Origin: Acidobacteriota bacterium | Lineage (GTDB): Bacteria; Acidobacteriota; Blastocatellia; Pyrinomonadales; Pyrinomonadaceae | Assembly: GCA_003222835.1 (NCBI GenBank) | Contig: QHXE01000371.1 | Span: 1 to 7,980 of the forward strand | Length of the DNA: 7,980 nt | Direction of reading: 5' to 3' | Shown: piece by piece, positions 1 to 6,171 of the stretch | Position numbering within the stretch: the first letter of the stretch is position 1 | Layout: each line of letters begins with the position of its first letter | Made by a program: the position numbers and the translations under genes | The notes under the pieces: model-generated | Databases searched by the model: none | Seen by the model: only the letters and a program-made list of their open reading frames with translations | Told to the model about the DNA's origin: nothing

Positions 1-863
1 TGCAAGTCAGCCTTAGCTTTCGCTTGTAGACCTTTCGGCAGTTTGTTAAGAACGTTGGCTGTTTTGTGCACCCAACAACGTTGCTCGCGGGTGTTGCCAA
101 AGACTTGCGGCAACGCTTTCCAGAAGCCTAGCGCTCCATCACCAATCGCTACTTTCGGTTCGATAGTCAGCCCTCGTTGTTTCAAGTCCAACAAGAGCTC
201 TTGCCACGATTCAGCTGATTCGCGGTAGCCATCGAGCATGGCCAGCAATTCTTTCTTACCGTCCGCAGTGGCCCCAATGACTACTAAAATGCACTGGCTC
301 GTGTCCTCCAGGCGTACCCCGAAGTGCACCCCGTCAACCCAAATGTAGACAAAGTTCCGATCCCTCAGATCCCGCTTGGCCCATTGCTCGTACTCGCTTT
401 TCCAGCTTTCCTTCAAGCGGCTGATCGTGGTTGCTGAAAGTCCCGGCGCACCTTGCCCTAAGAGCGCTCCTAAAGCTCCGGAAAAGTCACCGGTCGAGAG
501 CCCTTTCAAGTACAACCAGGGCAGCAGCTCTGCCAAACTCCTGCTGCGGCGCAGATAGACTGGCAAGATGCGCGACCGAAACTTGAGCTCGCCGGCCCGG
601 TCACGCGCCCGCGGCGCTTTCACTACCACTTCGCCAATCCCCGTTTGGATACTCCGTTCCGGAAGATATCCGTTGCGCACCACTCGCTGCCGCTCCTGCT
701 CATCCTTCAGTTCCCGATGCTCCTCGATGTACTCCGCCACCTCCGCTTCCACTGCTTGCCGCAACAACTGTCGCGCCCCATTCCGCAACACCTCGGTTAG
801 CGGATCGCCCACCGCTACCGCTACTCCTGGATTCCGATACTCAACTACGCTATCTTCTCCCAC
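1..863 (-). CDS. IS256-family (Mutator-like) DDE transposase, N-terminal 287 residues
   Basis: The protein catalyses cut-and-paste or copy-out transposition of its own IS. I read it from a GTG codon at 863-861, which is preceded by a strong Shine-Dalgarno AAGGAGG (878-872 on the minus strand) 8 nt upstream. The frame then stays open for 287 codons to the window edge; family members are about 390-420 residues, so the last quarter is missing. Visible family signatures are the first catalytic Asp in YIWVDGVHFG (D177), the second in IGDGALGFWKAL (D242), and the C-x2-H signature in QRCWVHKTANVL (C263, H266). The third acidic residue would lie beyond position 1. The N-terminal part (about 20-160) is the usual helical DNA-binding region, with a conserved block near GYLPERSIQTGIG. 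The ORFs on the opposite strand here are shadows. Whether the complete gene is intact cannot be judged. Confidence 0.93.
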   Translation of the reverse strand, partial: MGEDSVVEYRNPGVAVAVGDPLTEVLRNGARQLLRQAVEAEVAEYIEEHRELKDEQERQRVVRNGYLPERSIQTGIGEVVVKAPRARDRAGELKFRSRILPVYLRRSRSLAELLPWLYLKGLSTGDFSGALGALLGQGAPGLSATTISRLKESWKSEYEQWAKRDLRDRNFVYIWVDGVHFGVRLEDTSQCILVVIGATADGKKELLAMLDGYRESAESWQELLLDLKQRGLTIEPKVAIGDGALGFWKALPQVFGNTREQRCWVHKTANVLNKLPKGLQAKAKADL

Positions 864-924
864 GGCGTATTCCTCCTTAGCAATAAGGTTGATGGTTCTG
901 TCAAAAACTCATCAAGAATACGCC
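864..924 (-). promoter_or_regulatory. Transposase leader hairpin that can occlude the ribosome binding site
   Basis: A perfect 9-bp inverted repeat, GGCGTATTC / GAATACGCC in minus-strand reading, lies at 924-916 and 872-864. The loop is about 43 nt. The 3' arm abuts the GTG start and takes in the last base of the AAGGAGG Shine-Dalgarno. Two further pairs (915 with 873 as U-G, 914 with 874 as U-A) extend into its core. By analogy with IS10, IS50 and IS200, such a fold would repress translation of transposase mRNA that enters from outside the element. The repeat is seen directly; the regulatory role is inferred. Confidence 0.5.
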
Positions 925-1080: not shown

Positions 1081-3333
1081 ATGAAGCACAAGACAACTAT
1101 AATCTATTGCGCGCGTGCGCTACGCCTGTCGATTTGCGCGATGCTTATTCTTCTCTGCGCCGATCAATCTCGCGCCTCCGTCTTCGGCGACGTGCGCGGG
1201 ATTGTATTTGATCCACAGCACCAGGCGATTGCGGGAGCAAGCCTCCGACTGCGCTCGAAGTCTTCCGATTTTGCGCAAGACATGCAGAGCACTCCCACGG
1301 GTGAATTTCTTTTTCGCGCGATTCCGATCGGAGAATATACACTTACGATCGAGGCTAAAGGTTTCAAATCGATCGAGCAGTCAGTGACCGTCATTTCCGG
1401 AAATGCTCCGGTGCTTCATTTCTTCATGACAATCGCGCCGGTGTCACAGCGCGTTGAAGTCGTAGAAAACCCCGAAACACCGCGGACGGACTCGCCTACG
1501 CCCACCACACTGATTCGCAGGCAGGAAATCTCTCAAACTCCCGGATCGGATCGCACCAACAGCCTTGCCTTCATAACTAACTTCGTTCCCGGTTCTTATC
1601 TGACGCACAATCAACTGCACGTTCGCGGCGGGCATCAGGTGACGTGGCTCATCGATGGCGTTCCGGTGCCGAATACGAACATCGCCGATACGGTCGGCGC
1701 GCAATTCGACCCGAAGGACATCGATTATCTCGAAATCCAACGCGGCAGTTATTCCTCGGAACTCGGGGATCGCACTTACGCGGTCTTGAATGTAGTGCCG
1801 CGCAGTGGTTTCGAGCGCAAACGCGAAGGTGAATTGTTACTGACCTATGGAAATTTTCACCAGACGAACGATCAATTGAGCTTCGCCAGCCACACGAAGC
1901 GTTTCGCTTACTATAGCAGCGTAAATTTCAGTCGAAGTGATTACGGCTTGCAAACGCCGACTGTTCTGGTGCTACACGATCAGACCAACGGTCTGGGCGG
2001 CTTCACCTCGCTAATCTTCAACCCAAACCCAAAGGACCAGTTGCGATTGGTCGCCGGCGCCCGAAGAGATTTTTTTCAAGTGCCGAACGATAGCGAGGCG
2101 CAGGACTCGGGCATCCGGGACGTGCAGCGTGAGGCCGATGCGTTCGCAAATTTTTCCTGGGTGCATACTTTCAACGCCCAGGCTTTGTTCACGGTCTCTC
2201 CGTTTTATCACTTCAATCGGGCGGACTTTATTGGTGGGCCATTCGATACGCCCGTGCGGGCCAGGAACCGGCGAGCTTCAAACTATGCCGGCGCGCAGGC
2301 GACGCTCAGCATTCTGACCCGCCAACACAACCTCAAAGCGGGCTTCTACGGATTTTCTCAACATGATTCGAATCTGTTTGCCATTCAGGGCGAGGATGCT
2401 AACGGCGCGCCGATTAGCCTGACGCAGACGCAGAAACCAAGCGGCAATCTGGAAGCTGTCTTTGCCGAAGATCAGTTCAAGCTGCTGGACTGGCTGACAC
2501 TGACTGGTGGCGTGCGTTTCACCAGGTTTCACGGTGCGCTAACTGAAACCGCGACCAGCCCGCGCGCCGGTGCTGCCATTCGCATTCCGCGTTTGAATTG
2601 GGTCCTGCATGGATTCTATGGACGTTACTATCAGGCGCCGCCGCTGGCGACAGTTTCCGGGCCGCTGCTTGAATTGGCAATCAGCCAGGGCTTTGGTTTC
2701 ATTCCCTTGCGCGGCGAACGCGACGAAGAACATCAGTTTGGAATTTCGATTCCCGCACGCGGATGGATAATCGAATCAGATTACTTCCGCACCGGCGTAA
2801 AGAATTTTTTCGATCACAACCCGCTCGGCACCTCGAATATTTTCTTTCCCCTGACTATTGCCAGGGCGCGCATTCGAGCATTCGAAGTTACGGCGCGCTC
2901 GCCGCTATTGTTTGGTCGGGGCCGATTTCATCTGGCTTATTCGCGGCAGAAAGTTGAAGGCCAGGGCGCGGTCACTGGCGGTCTGACTGACTTCGCGCCG
3001 CCCGAAGACTTCTTTCTGCTCGATCACGATCAGCGTCACACGCTCAGCTCGGGTCTCGTGATCAATCTACCGAGCCGCGCGTTTGCTTCCGCGACTATTC
3101 GATACGGCTCAGGATTTCTGGATGGTGACAATTCACCAAACCATCTACCTGGCCACACGCTTTTTGATCTATCTTTCGGCAAAAACTTCGGCGAGGATTG
3201 GCTGATCGCAATTCAATCAGTGAACGTCGCAAATCGTCGTTTCCTGCTCGACAACAGCAACACGTTCGGCGGCACACACTTCGTGGAACCGCGACAGGTC
3301 TACGTCGAAGTGAAATACAAGTTTCACTATTGA
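1081..3333 (+). CDS. TonB-dependent outer-membrane receptor with N-terminal carboxypeptidase-regulatory-like domain
   Basis: This 750-residue protein is probably an outer-membrane channel for active, TonB/ExbBD-energised uptake; the substrate cannot be read from the sequence. Residues 1-32 form a signal peptide: basic start, hydrophobic CAMLILLC, and likely cleavage after DQSRA. Residues about 36-118 match the CarboxypepD_reg/Cna-B-like beta-sandwich (GDVRGIVFDPQHQAIAGASL; IPIGEYTLTIEAKGFKS). Residues about 140-243 are the plug, with TPGSDRTNSL, LHVRGGHQVTWLIDGVPVPN and LEIQRGSYSSELGD. Residues about 245-750 are a beta-barrel of alternating aromatic strands. The last residues, VEVKYKFHY, end in an aromatic as expected for BAM-dependent insertion. 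The ATG at 1081 is preferred because it yields the whole signal peptide; AGGAG lies 14 nt upstream, a long spacer, so initiation may be weak. No TonB box was recognised. It is shorter than the large Oar-like members (about 1000 residues) but complete for a receptor of this class. Confidence 0.9.
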   Translation: MKHKTTIIYCARALRLSICAMLILLCADQSRASVFGDVRGIVFDPQHQAIAGASLRLRSKSSDFAQDMQSTPTGEFLFRAIPIGEYTLTIEAKGFKSIEQSVTVISGNAPVLHFFMTIAPVSQRVEVVENPETPRTDSPTPTTLIRRQEISQTPGSDRTNSLAFITNFVPGSYLTHNQLHVRGGHQVTWLIDGVPVPNTNIADTVGAQFDPKDIDYLEIQRGSYSSELGDRTYAVLNVVPRSGFERKREGELLLTYGNFHQTNDQLSFASHTKRFAYYSSVNFSRSDYGLQTPTVLVLHDQTNGLGGFTSLIFNPNPKDQLRLVAGARRDFFQVPNDSEAQDSGIRDVQREADAFANFSWVHTFNAQALFTVSPFYHFNRADFIGGPFDTPVRARNRRASNYAGAQATLSILTRQHNLKAGFYGFSQHDSNLFAIQGEDANGAPISLTQTQKPSGNLEAVFAEDQFKLLDWLTLTGGVRFTRFHGALTETATSPRAGAAIRIPRLNWVLHGFYGRYYQAPPLATVSGPLLELAISQGFGFIPLRGERDEEHQFGISIPARGWIIESDYFRTGVKNFFDHNPLGTSNIFFPLTIARARIRAFEVTARSPLLFGRGRFHLAYSRQKVEGQGAVTGGLTDFAPPEDFFLLDHDQRHTLSSGLVINLPSRAFASATIRYGSGFLDGDNSPNHLPGHTLFDLSFGKNFGEDWLIAIQSVNVANRRFLLDNSNTFGGTHFVEPRQVYVEVKYKFHY

Positions 3334-3407
3334 GCCGCGTAGCTGCGCCGCACGCTAATATCCTGTTCGGCCCTCGTCACGAGCCTGGTCTTGTGTTACA
3401 AGTTCCA

Positions 3408-3455
3408 GCGGCGATGGAGTCCGCCATTAAATGCCTGCGTGCTGATGACTCCTAC
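3408..3455 (+). promoter_or_regulatory. Fluoride riboswitch (crcB RNA motif) aptamer
   Basis: The RNA senses fluoride ion and controls the exporter gene that follows. The sequence carries the conserved crcB-motif landmarks: GGCGATGGAGTCCGCCA at 3410-3426 with hairpin arms GGCG (3410-3413) and CGCC (3422-3425), then GCTGATGACTCCTAC at 3441-3455. The loop segment GGAGT (3416-3420) is exactly complementary to ACTCC (3448-3452), the pseudoknot that closes the fluoride pocket in the known structure. The middle helix (about 3431-3442) looks short and weakly paired. Its position directly before a CrcB reading frame makes the assignment strong. Confidence 0.93.
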
Positions 3456-3478
3456 CAACTCTTTCGGAGTTTATCGAC
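3448..3478 (+). promoter_or_regulatory. Expression platform: translational switch over the crcB ribosome binding site
   Basis: The Shine-Dalgarno GGAG (3466-3469) sits 9 nt before the GTG start at 3479. It is part of GGAGT (3466-3470), a second copy of the aptamer's own pseudoknot strand, so ACTCC (3448-3452) can pair with either one. In addition AACTC (3457-3461) pairs with GAGTT (3467-3471) in a small hairpin that buries the same site. There is no U-tract, so control is more likely at translation initiation than by transcription termination. The pairings are seen directly; the direction of switching (fluoride frees the site) is inferred from known fluoride ON switches. Confidence 0.65.
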
Positions 3479-3807
3479 GTGGGCAAATTTCTTTTGGCTG
3501 GGCTCGGCGGTTTCATCGGTTCGGCTTTGCGCTATGCAGTCGCCGGATACGTGCAGTATCGCAGCCGCAGCATTTATTTTCCCTACGGCACTTTGGCCGT
3601 AAATCTCATCGGCTGTTTTGTAATTGGCTTTCTCTCACAACTCTCCTGGGCGGATTCACAACTTTCTCAGCTTTCGGCAACGAGACTTTGAACCTGTGGC
3701 GCGACGGCGAGAATGCGCTTGCCATGGCCAATATCGCGGCGCACATCGTGCTGTGCCTGGGCGCAGTGTGGCTGAGCCGAGCGCTCGCTTATGAAATTTG
3801 GAGATAA
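3479..3807 (+). pseudogene. crcB: CrcB/Fluc fluoride channel, broken by an internal out-of-frame deletion
   Basis: Intact CrcB/Fluc proteins are dual-topology fluoride exporters in the inner membrane. The first half is read from the GTG at 3479: GKFLLAGLGGFIGSALRYA (TM1, with the conserved Arg18) and YGTLAVNLIGCFVIGFL (TM2, with the conserved Asn42, codon 3602-3604). This frame then runs into unrelated sequence and stops at 3689-3691. The second half continues in another frame from about 3640: LGGFTTFSAFGNETLNLWRDGE with the Phe box (Phe codons 3664 and 3673), then the TM4 segment AHIVLCLGAVWLSRALA, ending at TAA 3805-3807. In E. coli CrcB the Asn to first box Phe distance is 39 residues (117 nt); here it is 62 nt, a net loss of 55 nt. 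Restoring 55 nt gives a 127-residue protein, the family length. The loss removes the loop and the first part of TM3, so neither half should work. An assembly or sequencing error remains possible. Confidence 0.88.
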
Positions 3808-3854
3808 CATGTAGCGCAAGCTGCCAGCGTTATTGATGGAGGTGATGACTAGTC

Positions 3855-4193
3855 ATGATGCTTCCCGCGGAAGGTTTTCTACTACGTATTTTCATTGGCG
3901 AAAGCGACCGCCACAACGGCAAGCTGCTTTATGAGTGGATCGTGATTAAGGCGCGCGAAGAAGGATTGGCCGGAGCCACCGTGATGCGCGGTATGATGGG
4001 CTTTGGCGCGCACAGCCGCATGCATACTTTCAAGATCGAGCGACTATCACAAGACCTCCCAATCATCATCGAGATCGTGGACACGCGCGAAAAGCTCGAG
4101 AAGTTTCTATCGTTGATCGACAACGAAATCGAAGAAGGCATGGCCACCCTCGAGAAAGCGCAAATTCATTTTTATCGGAGCGGAAAGAAGTGA
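3855..4193 (+). CDS. DUF190 PII-like protein, fluoride-locus partner
   Basis: This 112-residue soluble protein belongs to the DUF190 family, whose known structure (Thermotoga TM0021) has a PII-like ferredoxin fold; its biochemical role is not established. Family blocks are LLRIFIGESDRHNGKLLYEW (8-27), AREEGLAGATVMRGMMGFGA (33-52) and LSQDLPIIIEIVDTREKLEK (64-83). The length is typical and the frame uninterrupted. The first of two adjacent ATG codons at 3855 was chosen; GGAGGTGAT (3838-3846) lies 8 nt upstream, the strongest Shine-Dalgarno in the window, so it can be translated independently of crcB. It begins 47 nt after the crcB remnant with no terminator between, so both are probably on one fluoride-riboswitch-led transcript. 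DUF190 genes often neighbour or are fused to crcB, which suggests an accessory or regulatory role in fluoride export; that role is inferred. Confidence 0.88.
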   Translation: MMLPAEGFLLRIFIGESDRHNGKLLYEWIVIKAREEGLAGATVMRGMMGFGAHSRMHTFKIERLSQDLPIIIEIVDTREKLEKFLSLIDNEIEEGMATLEKAQIHFYRSGKK

Positions 4194-4200
4194 AGTCAGT

Positions 4201-4222
4201 ACTACCTGCGTCAGCGGGTGGT
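4201..4222. terminator. Hairpin between convergent genes, possible terminator or dispersed repeat
   Basis: ACTACCTGC (4201-4209) pairs with GCGGGTGGT (4214-4222) through 9 pairs, two of them G-U, around a GTCA loop. It lies in the 40-nt gap between the convergent DUF190 gene and the minus-strand acetyltransferase, where a bidirectional terminator is expected. There is no T-tract on either side, so intrinsic termination is unproven. The motif also resembles a dispersed intergenic palindrome. Confidence 0.4.
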
Positions 4223-4233
4223 CTATTCACGAA

Positions 4234-4758
4234 TCATTCTGTCGATTCGACCGTGTATTCTTCAGTTTTATAAGGTCGAAAGCCGCGTTTCAGATAATTC
4301 GGCATTGCGGCTTGGTCATCTAGCGTGCAGGTATGCAGCCAGACTCGATTCGCGCCATCGGCCCAAGCTTCTTCGGTAGCAGACGTCAGCAAGTGCTTAC
4401 CGAAACCGCGGCCGATGAATTCAGGTAACAGACCGAAGTAAGCAATCTCGGTCGAACCATCTTCGCAGCGTCGCAGCTCGAAATAACCCGCCGGAGCTTC
4501 GTCATAAGTCATCAGCCATAAAGAAATCTCTGGCTGGTTAAGGTGCGCCGCCATTTCTTCGTCCGTCCACGGCAGGCGATCGACCCAGAGATAATTCTTG
4601 CCTACCTCAACATAAAGATGGCGATAGAAGGGAGGTGAGCAATCTTGCAATTGGTGAATTCGAATTCGCGGATCGTCGCTACGTGCGGGTCTTAGTTCCG
4701 AAGCGTCGCGCATTTCTAGATAGGTGCGGGTGACTTCGATTGCTGTGGCTGTTTTCAT
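4234..4758 (-). CDS. GNAT-family N-acetyltransferase
   Basis: The 174-residue protein should transfer an acetyl group from acetyl-CoA to an unidentified amine in the cytoplasm. The N-terminal block [19 protein letters not shown] (8-26) and the block [16 protein letters not shown] (58-73) mark a recognisable GNAT subfamily. The acetyl-CoA-binding motif A is at 104-124 (EIAYFGLLPEFIGRGFGKHL), with the pyrophosphate-binding loop GRGFGK at 116-121. Motif B is VWLHTCTLDD (139-148) followed by NYLKRGFRPYK (154-164). The ATG at 4758 has no clear Shine-Dalgarno. It is kept because it gives the usual short leader before EVTRTYLEM; a start at Met16 would cut into the conserved block. A diverged 5' copy of this gene lies about 460 nt upstream. 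The 70-nt gap upstream (4759-4828) contains an AT-rich GATAAT but no convincing -35 element. Confidence 0.88.
   Translation of the reverse strand: MKTATAIEVTRTYLEMRDASELRPARSDDPRIRIHQLQDCSPPFYRHLYVEVGKNYLWVDRLPWTDEEMAAHLNQPEISLWLMTYDEAPAGYFELRRCEDGSTEIAYFGLLPEFIGRGFGKHLLTSATEEAWADGANRVWLHTCTLDDQAAMPNYLKRGFRPYKTEEYTVESTE
4528..4737 (-). repeat. Diverged direct repeat, copy 1 (inside the intact acetyltransferase gene)
   Basis: These 70 codons (residues 8-77 of the intact GNAT gene) align without gaps to the fragment at 4986-5195. I count 61 of 70 identical residues, and the bases are clearly similar too, as in the shared run encoding [11 protein letters not shown]. The two copies lie in the same orientation with an offset of about 458 nt. 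This is a paralogous duplication and could itself be a substrate for further recombination. Confidence 0.85.
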
Positions 4759-4828: not shown

Positions 4829-4990
4829 TCAGTTTTCGTCGAGCATTTGAATTCTTCGCGCATGCCGCCCGCCCTCAAAATCAGTCTCGAGCCATACGCG
4901 CACGATCTCAAGCGCGTCCTCCTCAGAGATCATCCGCTGGCCGAGTGAGATGATATTAGCGTCATTGTGCTGCCGTGCCAGTCGTTTCTG
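4829..4990 (-). pseudogene. rpiB: Ribose-5-phosphate isomerase B, C-terminal fragment
   Basis: RpiB interconverts ribose-5-phosphate and ribulose-5-phosphate in the pentose phosphate pathway and is normally about 145-155 residues. Only the last ~53 codons are here, ending in TGA at 4831-4829. The telltale segments are [37 protein letters not shown] and the terminal [12 protein letters not shown], matching the family's HNDAN and FEGGRHxRR blocks. Upstream of about 4990 the homology stops and the DNA belongs to an acetyltransferase gene in another frame. The N-terminal half with the nucleotide-fold active-site residues is absent, so no enzyme can be made. A functional rpiB elsewhere in the genome is expected but cannot be seen here. 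Confidence 0.87.
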
Positions 4991-5231
4991 GCCGGTTAAG
5001 ATGCGCCGCGATTTCTTCGTCTGTCCACGGCAGGCGATCGACCCAGTGATAGTTCTTGCCCACCTCGACGTAGAGATGGCGATAGAAGGAAGGTGCGCAA
5101 TCTTGCAATTGCTCGATGCGAATTCGCGGATCGTCAGAGCGCATGGGCTGTAACTCGGAAGGGTCCCGCATTTCAAGATAGGTGCGGGTTACTTCGATCG
5201 ATTGTCTCTTTATATCGGCGATCAGCGGCAT
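4986..5231 (-). pseudogene. GNAT acetyltransferase, N-terminal fragment fused to rpiB remnant
   Basis: The ATG at 5231 opens a frame whose residues 13-82 ([20 protein letters not shown] through AAHLNRPE) are 61/70 identical to residues 8-77 of the neighbouring intact GNAT gene. At about 4987-4991 (CCAGA in minus-strand reading) homology ends and the frame runs seven residues into rpiB DNA before TGA at 4964-4962. The acetyl-CoA-binding motif A and all of the C-terminal half are missing, so the 89-residue product would be inactive. It is the second copy of the direct repeat. The fragment lies 25 nt downstream of xerD on the same strand and may be co-transcribed with it. Confidence 0.87.
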
Positions 5232-5256
5232 TTAAGTTCTCAAACACACCCGGTCG

Positions 5257-6171
5257 CTACCGCTCCCGGTTCTGTAACCGCGCCCTCGGATGAAAACGAT
5301 CGTAAGCTTTGCGCATGTGCAGGTCGGTGATATGCGTATAGATTTCCGTCGTCGAAATGTCCGCGTGACCGAGCATCGCCTGCACTGAGCGCGAATCGGC
5401 CCCGCGTTGCATCAGATGAGTGGCGAAGCTGTGCCGCAGAGTGTGGGGCGAGATGTCGGGAACACCCGCGCGCGCCGCATGAGTCTTAATTATAGACCAT
5501 GCTGTTTGCCGCGTGAGCGGTCTCGCCCTGGGTCCGAAAAACAGATCGGGTCGCGCTTCATTCCCAAGTCGCTTGCGTATGCCCAGATACCTTTGCAGCC
5601 AATGCACAGCGCTCTTCCCGATCGGAATCCGGCGTTGCTTGCTGCCTTTCCCGTGACACGTGAGTAGCGCTGCGTCGATATCGATGTTGCCGGTGTTGAG
5701 CGCGCACAATTCTGAAACGCGCAGGCCGGCAGCATACATCACTTCCAACATTGCGCGATCACGCACTCCTGAATCCGTGGAGATGTCGGGCGTCAAGAGC
5801 AGCCGTTCCATCTCCTCTTCGGTTAGAAATCTTGGCAAATATGAGAGCCGCTGCGGCGTGTGAAGGTCTTCCGCCGGATGCCGTTTGATGTGGCCATCGA
5901 GCATCAGAAACCGAAAGAAGCCACGCGCCGCGCTCACTGCGCGCGCGATAGACGACGGCGCCAGCCCCTGGCGCGACATGCCGGCAATCCACTCACGCAA
6001 GTCCTTACGTTCAAGCTTTTCGATCTGTTTGTGATTTTTATCCGCCCAATTTTGCAGCTTCGCAACGTCGCGCGCGTAACTCTCCAGCGTGTTTGCCGAG
6101 AGGCCTTTCTCCACCTGAATGTAGCTGAGGAATTCGCGGACGAAATTGCGATGATCAATCTGCTCGCTCAT
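5257..6171 (-). CDS. xerD: Site-specific tyrosine recombinase XerD
   Basis: XerD acts with XerC at the dif site to resolve chromosome dimers, with FtsK activation at the septum. The protein is 304 residues, close to E. coli XerD (298). Residues 10-95 form the SAM-like core-binding domain (FLSYIQVEKGLSANTLESYA). The catalytic domain (about 115-300) carries the full set of residues: Arg151 in AGLRVSEL, Lys175 in GKGSKQR, His243 and Arg246 in HTLRHSFATH, His269 in LGHADIS, and the nucleophile Tyr278 in TTEIYTHI. It ends in the typical FHPRA segment plus a short basic tail. XerD is favoured over XerC on the N-terminal and linker segments, but XerC is not excluded. The ATG at 6171 begins where family members do; no Shine-Dalgarno precedes it. 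The gene is single-standing, with 250 nt of repeat-rich DNA upstream. An integron or phage integrase is unlikely given the length and match. Confidence 0.92.
   Translation of the reverse strand: MSEQIDHRNFVREFLSYIQVEKGLSANTLESYARDVAKLQNWADKNHKQIEKLERKDLREWIAGMSRQGLAPSSIARAVSAARGFFRFLMLDGHIKRHPAEDLHTPQRLSYLPRFLTEEEMERLLLTPDISTDSGVRDRAMLEVMYAAGLRVSELCALNTGNIDIDAALLTCHGKGSKQRRIPIGKSAVHWLQRYLGIRKRLGNEARPDLFFGPRARPLTRQTAWSIIKTHAARAGVPDISPHTLRHSFATHLMQRGADSRSVQAMLGHADISTTEIYTHITDLHMRKAYDRFHPRARLQNRER

Follow-up and report, generated by a model that had tools for sequence, protein, structure and literature searches.

A fluoride riboswitch operon of a Pyrinomonadaceae-type acidobacterium with a 55-nt, probably recent deletion in crcB and an intact DUF190 gene

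Introduction

In fluoride riboswitch-crcB operons (aptamer RF01734, channel PF02537/TIGR00494) the aptamer lies directly upstream of crcB, and the ribosome binding site of crcB is within reach of the aptamer ACUCC. Both features are shared by the locus described here, which lies in a window of 7,980 nt of acidobacterial DNA (the whole stretch that was analysed), but its crcB differs by a frame-shifting deletion of 55 nt. A second comparison is offered by SbtA-SbtB and AmtB-GlnK, in which a transporter is paired with a PII-family regulator. The product of the DUF190 gene downstream of crcB resembles these regulators in that it is predicted to be PII-like and is encoded beside a small membrane channel. 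The channel, however, belongs to another family, and the likeness is one of predicted fold and gene position. In a library outside which most subscription papers lie, no paper was found for CrcB with PII-like, for PII-like with fluoride channel or for UPF0166, and the papers found for DUF190 with fluoride concern other subjects by their listing.

An initial annotation of the window had described a broken exporter gene between an intact sensor and an intact DUF190 gene, and had offered two readings: a very recent loss, or a fluoride-related role for which DUF190 is kept without the local channel.

Results and Discussion

Organization of the operon and its riboswitch

From its left end, the window carries a Mutator-type transposase (PF00872), a TonB-dependent receptor (1081-3333) and the fluoride operon (3401-4193, plus strand). 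On the 3′ side of the operon these are followed by an acetyltransferase, debris, a tyrosine recombinase, a second acetyltransferase and a TPR-like protein. The features of the operon are collected in Table 1.

Table 1. Features of the fluoride operon, with positions in the window.
Feature	Position	Strand	Basis or remark
Fluoride riboswitch aptamer (crcB motif), intact	3401-3461	+	RF01734
Aptamer ACTCC	3448-3452	+	can pair with GGAGT 3416-3420 or GGAGT 3466-3470
crcB ribosome binding site GGAGT	3466-3470	+	sequence
crcB 5′ remnant (GTG start, TM1, TM2 with conserved Asn), 55 codons	3479-3643	+	PF02537 1-49
Deletion junction, 2-nt TC ambiguity	3643-3644	+	G001 alignment; spacing compared with 5 genus members
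Frame-shifted tail of the crcB frame, premature TGA 3689-3691	3644-3691	+	
crcB 3′ remnant (GGFTTFS Phe-box, rest of TM3, TM4), out of frame, original stop TAA 3805-3807	3646-3807	+	
DUF190 ribosome binding site, strong (GGAGGTGA), 9 nt before start	3838-3845	+	sequence
DUF190 (PF02641) gene, 112 aa, intact, predicted PII-like fold	3855-4193	+	

The aptamer matches the complete RF01734 model (positions 1-64) with 48.4 bits (gathering score 34; E 3e-11), and its positions 3407-3458 are identical to those in the nearest genome, G001. The span of 3408-4193 given initially for the operon is right within a few bases, as the aptamer match begins at 3401. Where the window has the crcB ribosome binding site, six other genus members in the alignment carry a motif of the GGAG or GAG type that varies in form. 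As the initial annotation had stated, the riboswitch and the crcB ribosome binding site are both preserved.

In the lowest-energy fold calculated for the RNA of 3401-3500 by itself (−31.7 kcal/mol, z −2.14), the aptamer CUCC is paired with the ribosome binding site of crcB. In the same fold UGAUGACUCC pairs with this site together with the bases following it, and UGCCUGCGU with the start-codon region. In the fluoride-bound state of this family, the aptamer ACUCC forms a pseudoknot, here with GGAGU 3416-3420. Since the same ACUCC would serve the ribosome binding site in the predicted fold and the presumed pseudoknot, crcB looks to be under control of a translational switch. The riboswitch itself looks still able to sense fluoride.

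A single deletion divides crcB into two frames

The crcB frame, starting with GTG at 3479, ends at the TGA after 70 codons. Its 5′ remnant matches the CRCB profile (PF02537) with 45.9 bits, while profile positions 58-101 are matched in the other frame by the 3′ piece (3643-3804 scanned) with 41.7 bits. The four-helix CrcB/Fluc domain is thus not contained in one open frame, but split into two pieces in different frames. Against TIGR00494 the 70-aa product scores 49.1 bits, which is below the equivalog cut-off of 80.45; the intact CrcB of G001 (127 aa) scores 99.9 bits.

Pairwise alignment with G001 shows a single gap inside crcB, exactly 55 nt long and located at 3643/3644. In the helix naming of this family, the missing block comprises the TM2-TM3 loop together with the first part of TM3, and its loss shifts the frame. 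The distance from the aptamer to the Phe-box is 239 nt in the window, 294 nt in G001, 297 nt in G003 and G005, 377 nt in G002 and 375 nt in G004. Since it is shorter than in all five genus members, the window represents the derived state. These data confirm the initial description of the locus: a net loss of 55 nt removes the loop and the start of TM3, adding 55 nt restores a length of 127 residues, as in G001, and the broken exporter stands beside a sensor and a DUF190 protein that match RF01734 and PF02641 in full.

It is conceivable that the crcB pieces are still used, either by −1 frameshifting or as half-proteins that assemble, and both have kept their similarity to the profile. In any frame, however, the protein would lack about 18 residues, among them the start of TM3, and the low TIGR00494 score of the 70-aa product also speaks against a function. 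Inspection by eye revealed no slippery heptamer in the stretch from the junction to the stop; nor did the second piece show a suitably placed start preceded by a ribosome binding site. We consider continued use of the pieces very improbable.

Direct repeats near the junction have spacings of 76, 69 and 39 nt, and one copy of the first overlaps the left breakpoint. As none of the spacings is 55 nt, a repeat-driven deletion was rejected. The exact junction pattern was found in 0 stretches of genome_contigs, in a search that may omit records very near the window, and in 0 stretches of viral_contigs. A query of the protein collection with the 70-aa product returned 68 short CrcB-type proteins, and the junction is absent in the 7 that were examined.

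The absence of the junction from every other record searched in genome_contigs and viral_contigs would also fit an error of assembly or consensus, or a metagenome assembly that has captured a minority allele, with the crcB of the organism being intact. That the rest of crcB looks fully constrained (see below) points in the same direction, as does the finding that gene breaks of this size are no rarity in these draft genomes. On the other hand, only 2 nt are common to both breakpoints, so that repeat collapse is not indicated, and the spacings of the nearby repeats do not fit. To our knowledge, a clean loss of 55 nt is not a typical base-calling error either, which we counted against this account. 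We rate an error or minority allele as unlikely, yet as the next account after a recent loss of crcB.

In order to get an idea of how often crcB appears broken, we compared the genomes of the class. Partial crcB genes were seen at 6 of 128 places, three at contig ends (G007, G085 and the second of G154), one at an N gap (G008) and two internal (G016, G037); among the genomes with a partial crcB, a DUF190 match is present in G007 alone. For RlmH as a housekeeping control, 3 of 154 genomes had two reduced-score matches (one of these places being among the matches listed), and 2 more had a weak single match. A second control, PF04020, was too rare (3 of 162 genomes) and was discarded. The idea that crcB is a hot spot, broken more than other genes, was not supported, since reduced-score matches of RlmH occur at a similar rate. 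In G016, crcB is apparently truncated before TM3 and runs into the next gene (L043, around 5786-6025, minus strand); this genome is without a DUF190 match.

Comparison with sister genomes and age of the lesion

G001 has 20% of sampled words in common with the window and is 89% identical in this region. It carries the same operon with crcB intact. The crcB-DUF190 pairs of G001-G005 share gene order and orientation with the window, DUF190 being directly downstream of crcB, but there crcB is full-length. In total, six of the seven genomes of the genus have aptamer, crcB and DUF190, with one crcB each. In the seventh, G006, all three are absent, and the downstream acetyltransferase-integrase block is in place. 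A CLC match (PF00654), as a sign of a second known exporter, was found in 0 of the 7 same-genus genomes, one of which (G004) is 79% complete. With no CLC and one crcB each in the genus, a real loss of crcB would leave the organism with no known exporter, unless one was gained.

Relative to G001, the 5′ piece of crcB has 5 synonymous changes and 1 amino-acid change, and the 3′ piece 4 synonymous and 2 amino-acid changes, both counted in the original frame. DUF190 has 11 synonymous changes and 1 amino-acid change. The crcB remnants contain no further stop or indel. When changes were polarised on the four outgroups G002-G005, the branch of the window received 2 ambiguous amino-acid changes in crcB and no certain one; the single G/A difference in TM4 is on the branch of G001. 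A crude neutral model, in which the pooled dS of 0.14 is split evenly between the branches, predicts about 17.5 amino-acid-site changes for a crcB released from constraint along the entire branch. Under this model, the probability of two changes or fewer falls below 5% once crcB has been free for longer than about the last third of the branch. Since at most 2 changes were seen against about 17.5 expected, the loss would fall within roughly the last third. The crude model thus says that the lesion is recent, and to it a recent loss and an unreal deletion look alike.

We regard a recent loss of crcB by one 55-nt deletion in an ordinary riboswitch-crcB-DUF190 operon as the most likely account, with a probability of about 0.6. 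Of the two readings offered initially, the very recent loss is favoured by the lack of a second lesion and of excess amino-acid change in the crcB pieces. The comparison with sister genomes that had been suggested as a check revealed an intact operon in G001.

On this account, the host would be an acidobacterium (Blastocatellia, Pyrinomonadaceae-type) with an ordinary fluoride operon whose crcB was inactivated only very recently. Without fluoride, the crcB ribosome binding site would be hidden by pairing with the aptamer CUCC. Binding of fluoride would draw CUCC into the pseudoknot and free the site. Opening of the switch would now yield only a 70-residue TM1-TM2 fragment, which is presumably dead. 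DUF190, having its own strong ribosome binding site, could still be made, and would be intact for the reason that too little time has elapsed; it would be expected to decay or to go with the operon. The premature stop leaves 163 nt untranslated in front of DUF190 and may lower DUF190 expression through polarity.

The DUF190 protein and its linkage to crcB

DUF190 scores 128.3 bits against PF02641 (gathering score 23.4) over positions 2-97 of the 97-position profile, and at 112 aa it is 99% identical to the protein of G001, in agreement with the initial view that this gene is preserved. The structure model (pLDDT 82, with a low-confidence loop at residues 58-64) has the PII-type ferredoxin-like fold of the PII superfamily, and matches PDB entries 2dcl and 1o51, then CPII and SbtB.

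We applied a 15-sequence DUF190 alignment in a public-locus scan of genome_contigs and considered the best 80 of 572 confirmed loci, four of which (L070-L073) are genus members also included in the genus count. At 76 of these best 80 of 572 loci, DUF190 is preceded on its own strand by a full-length crcB no more than 200 nt away, a share that may be lower in the wider family, as the scan was seeded with crcB-linked DUF190s. At about 51 of the 76, crcB and DUF190 overlap or are at most 5 nt apart. The four misses are L126, which is at a contig end, L075, L090 and L138.

Among the 162 genomes of the class, DUF190 is present in 41, crcB in 126 and both in 40 (Fisher p 1e-4, a value that ignores shared descent). 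In 32 of these 40 genomes the pair is adjacent and complete, and in G007 it is split by contig ends. In the remaining 8 of the 41 DUF190-bearing genomes, which all belong to family f3, the two genes are on separate contigs (7) or crcB has no match (G061). These 8 genomes form one lineage and have the lowest-scoring single DUF190s (97-105 bits). One f3 example (L158, 3737-4081, in G047) has DUF190 off the contig of crcB and convergent with a histidine kinase gene. A further genome, G028, has three fluoride riboswitches (L157, 12299-12366 and 14142-14207): one before crcB and three DUF190 domains, one before a PF00999 Na+/H+ exchanger and Usp, and one further on.

These data suggest that DUF190 behaves as a partner of CrcB, and the PII-like fold points to a channel regulator. 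By analogy, DUF190 is most likely a regulator of the CrcB channel, as SbtB is for SbtA or GlnK for AmtB. Taken by itself, the locus amounts to a single pseudogene within an operon already known. A more useful lead is offered by the pairing of a PII-like protein with a fluoride channel, the DUF190 gene lying directly behind a full-length channel gene at 76 of the best 80 loci, the record titles of which cover many phyla. The hypothesis that Fluc is regulated by DUF190 in the way that SbtA is by SbtB can thereby be tested directly. Should the deletion be real, the strain would be a natural crcB mutant with the partner kept.

Other DUF190 genes without an intact neighbouring crcB

Two of the four misses resemble the window in that crcB is inactivated and DUF190 is open, but their breakpoints are others and their losses are bigger. 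In L075 (4770-5333, from the KSB1-labelled draft G163), only the 5′ half of the aptamer remains, fused directly to crcB at a point shortly before TM3. This locus is about 229 nt shorter than those of G003 and G005, having lost the N-half of crcB and, unlike the window, half of the aptamer (its 3′ half). The half crcB is the only crcB match in this genome of 10.3 Mb, which is probably mixed. L075 is apparently an independent deletion in the same kind of operon. In L090, from an Acidobacteria draft, crcB is cut after about 35 codons, and most of the gene beyond TM1 is deleted. No crcB match was found in the genome of L090; its CLC has a long C-terminal part and a GREGP motif, which we take as a sign of the chloride type, and it looks like an ordinary chloride CLC. 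At L138 DUF190 is away from crcB, and one full crcB is located elsewhere in the genome. All three loci come from draft genomes.

These cases could be understood if DUF190 had a fluoride-related job needing no local CrcB and were kept by selection after loss of the channel. Such a role would agree with the intact DUF190 of the window and its 1 amino-acid change relative to G001, with the open DUF190 at L075 and L090 beside deleted crcB genes, with the position of DUF190 at L138 apart from the one crcB of its genome, and with the 8 of 41 genomes (family f3) without an adjacent crcB. Elsewhere, however, co-occurrence and adjacency are near-obligate. At L075 the fluoride sensor is gone as well, so that fluoride control is lost there, its genome is probably mixed and the other genomes are drafts, and the f3 genomes count as one lineage with the lowest-scoring DUF190s. 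Two or three such loci in 80 were not taken as evidence for an independent role, since the loci are few, the genomes are drafts, and reduced-score matches of RlmH occur at a similar rate. The second of the two initial readings, DUF190 kept for fluoride without the channel, is accordingly improbable; against it stand the 40 of 41 class genomes with both genes, the 76 of the best 80 loci, and G006, which lacks the whole set.

As a more speculative and quite improbable idea, DUF190 might sense a fluoride-stress signal and serve more than the adjacent CrcB, for example another exporter or a fluoride-sensitive enzyme. Lineages could then lose crcB, as in the window, L075 and L090, and keep DUF190.

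Further observations in the window

At the left edge, an open frame of the PF00872 Mutator-family transposase (3-899, minus strand) runs off the window, upstream of the TonB receptor. The debris 3′ of the operon (4829-5231, minus strand) contains a partial acetyltransferase copy (4987-5198) that is 84% identical to 4529-4740, and is adjoined by the 3′ end of an rpiB-type isomerase gene (PF02502, profile positions 91-138). An identity of 84% is more in keeping with an old duplication than with a fault of assembly. Short dispersed repeats are located at 4191-4222, just after the DUF190 stop, and at about 5241-5287, by the recombinase gene. In G006 each of them has several to many matches, and the first is matched by a second contig of G001 as well. 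Finally, an imperfect inverted repeat around CCCTCTCCCTTTGGGAGAGGG at 6232-6391 matches a region of G002 and looks like a REP or MITE-type element.
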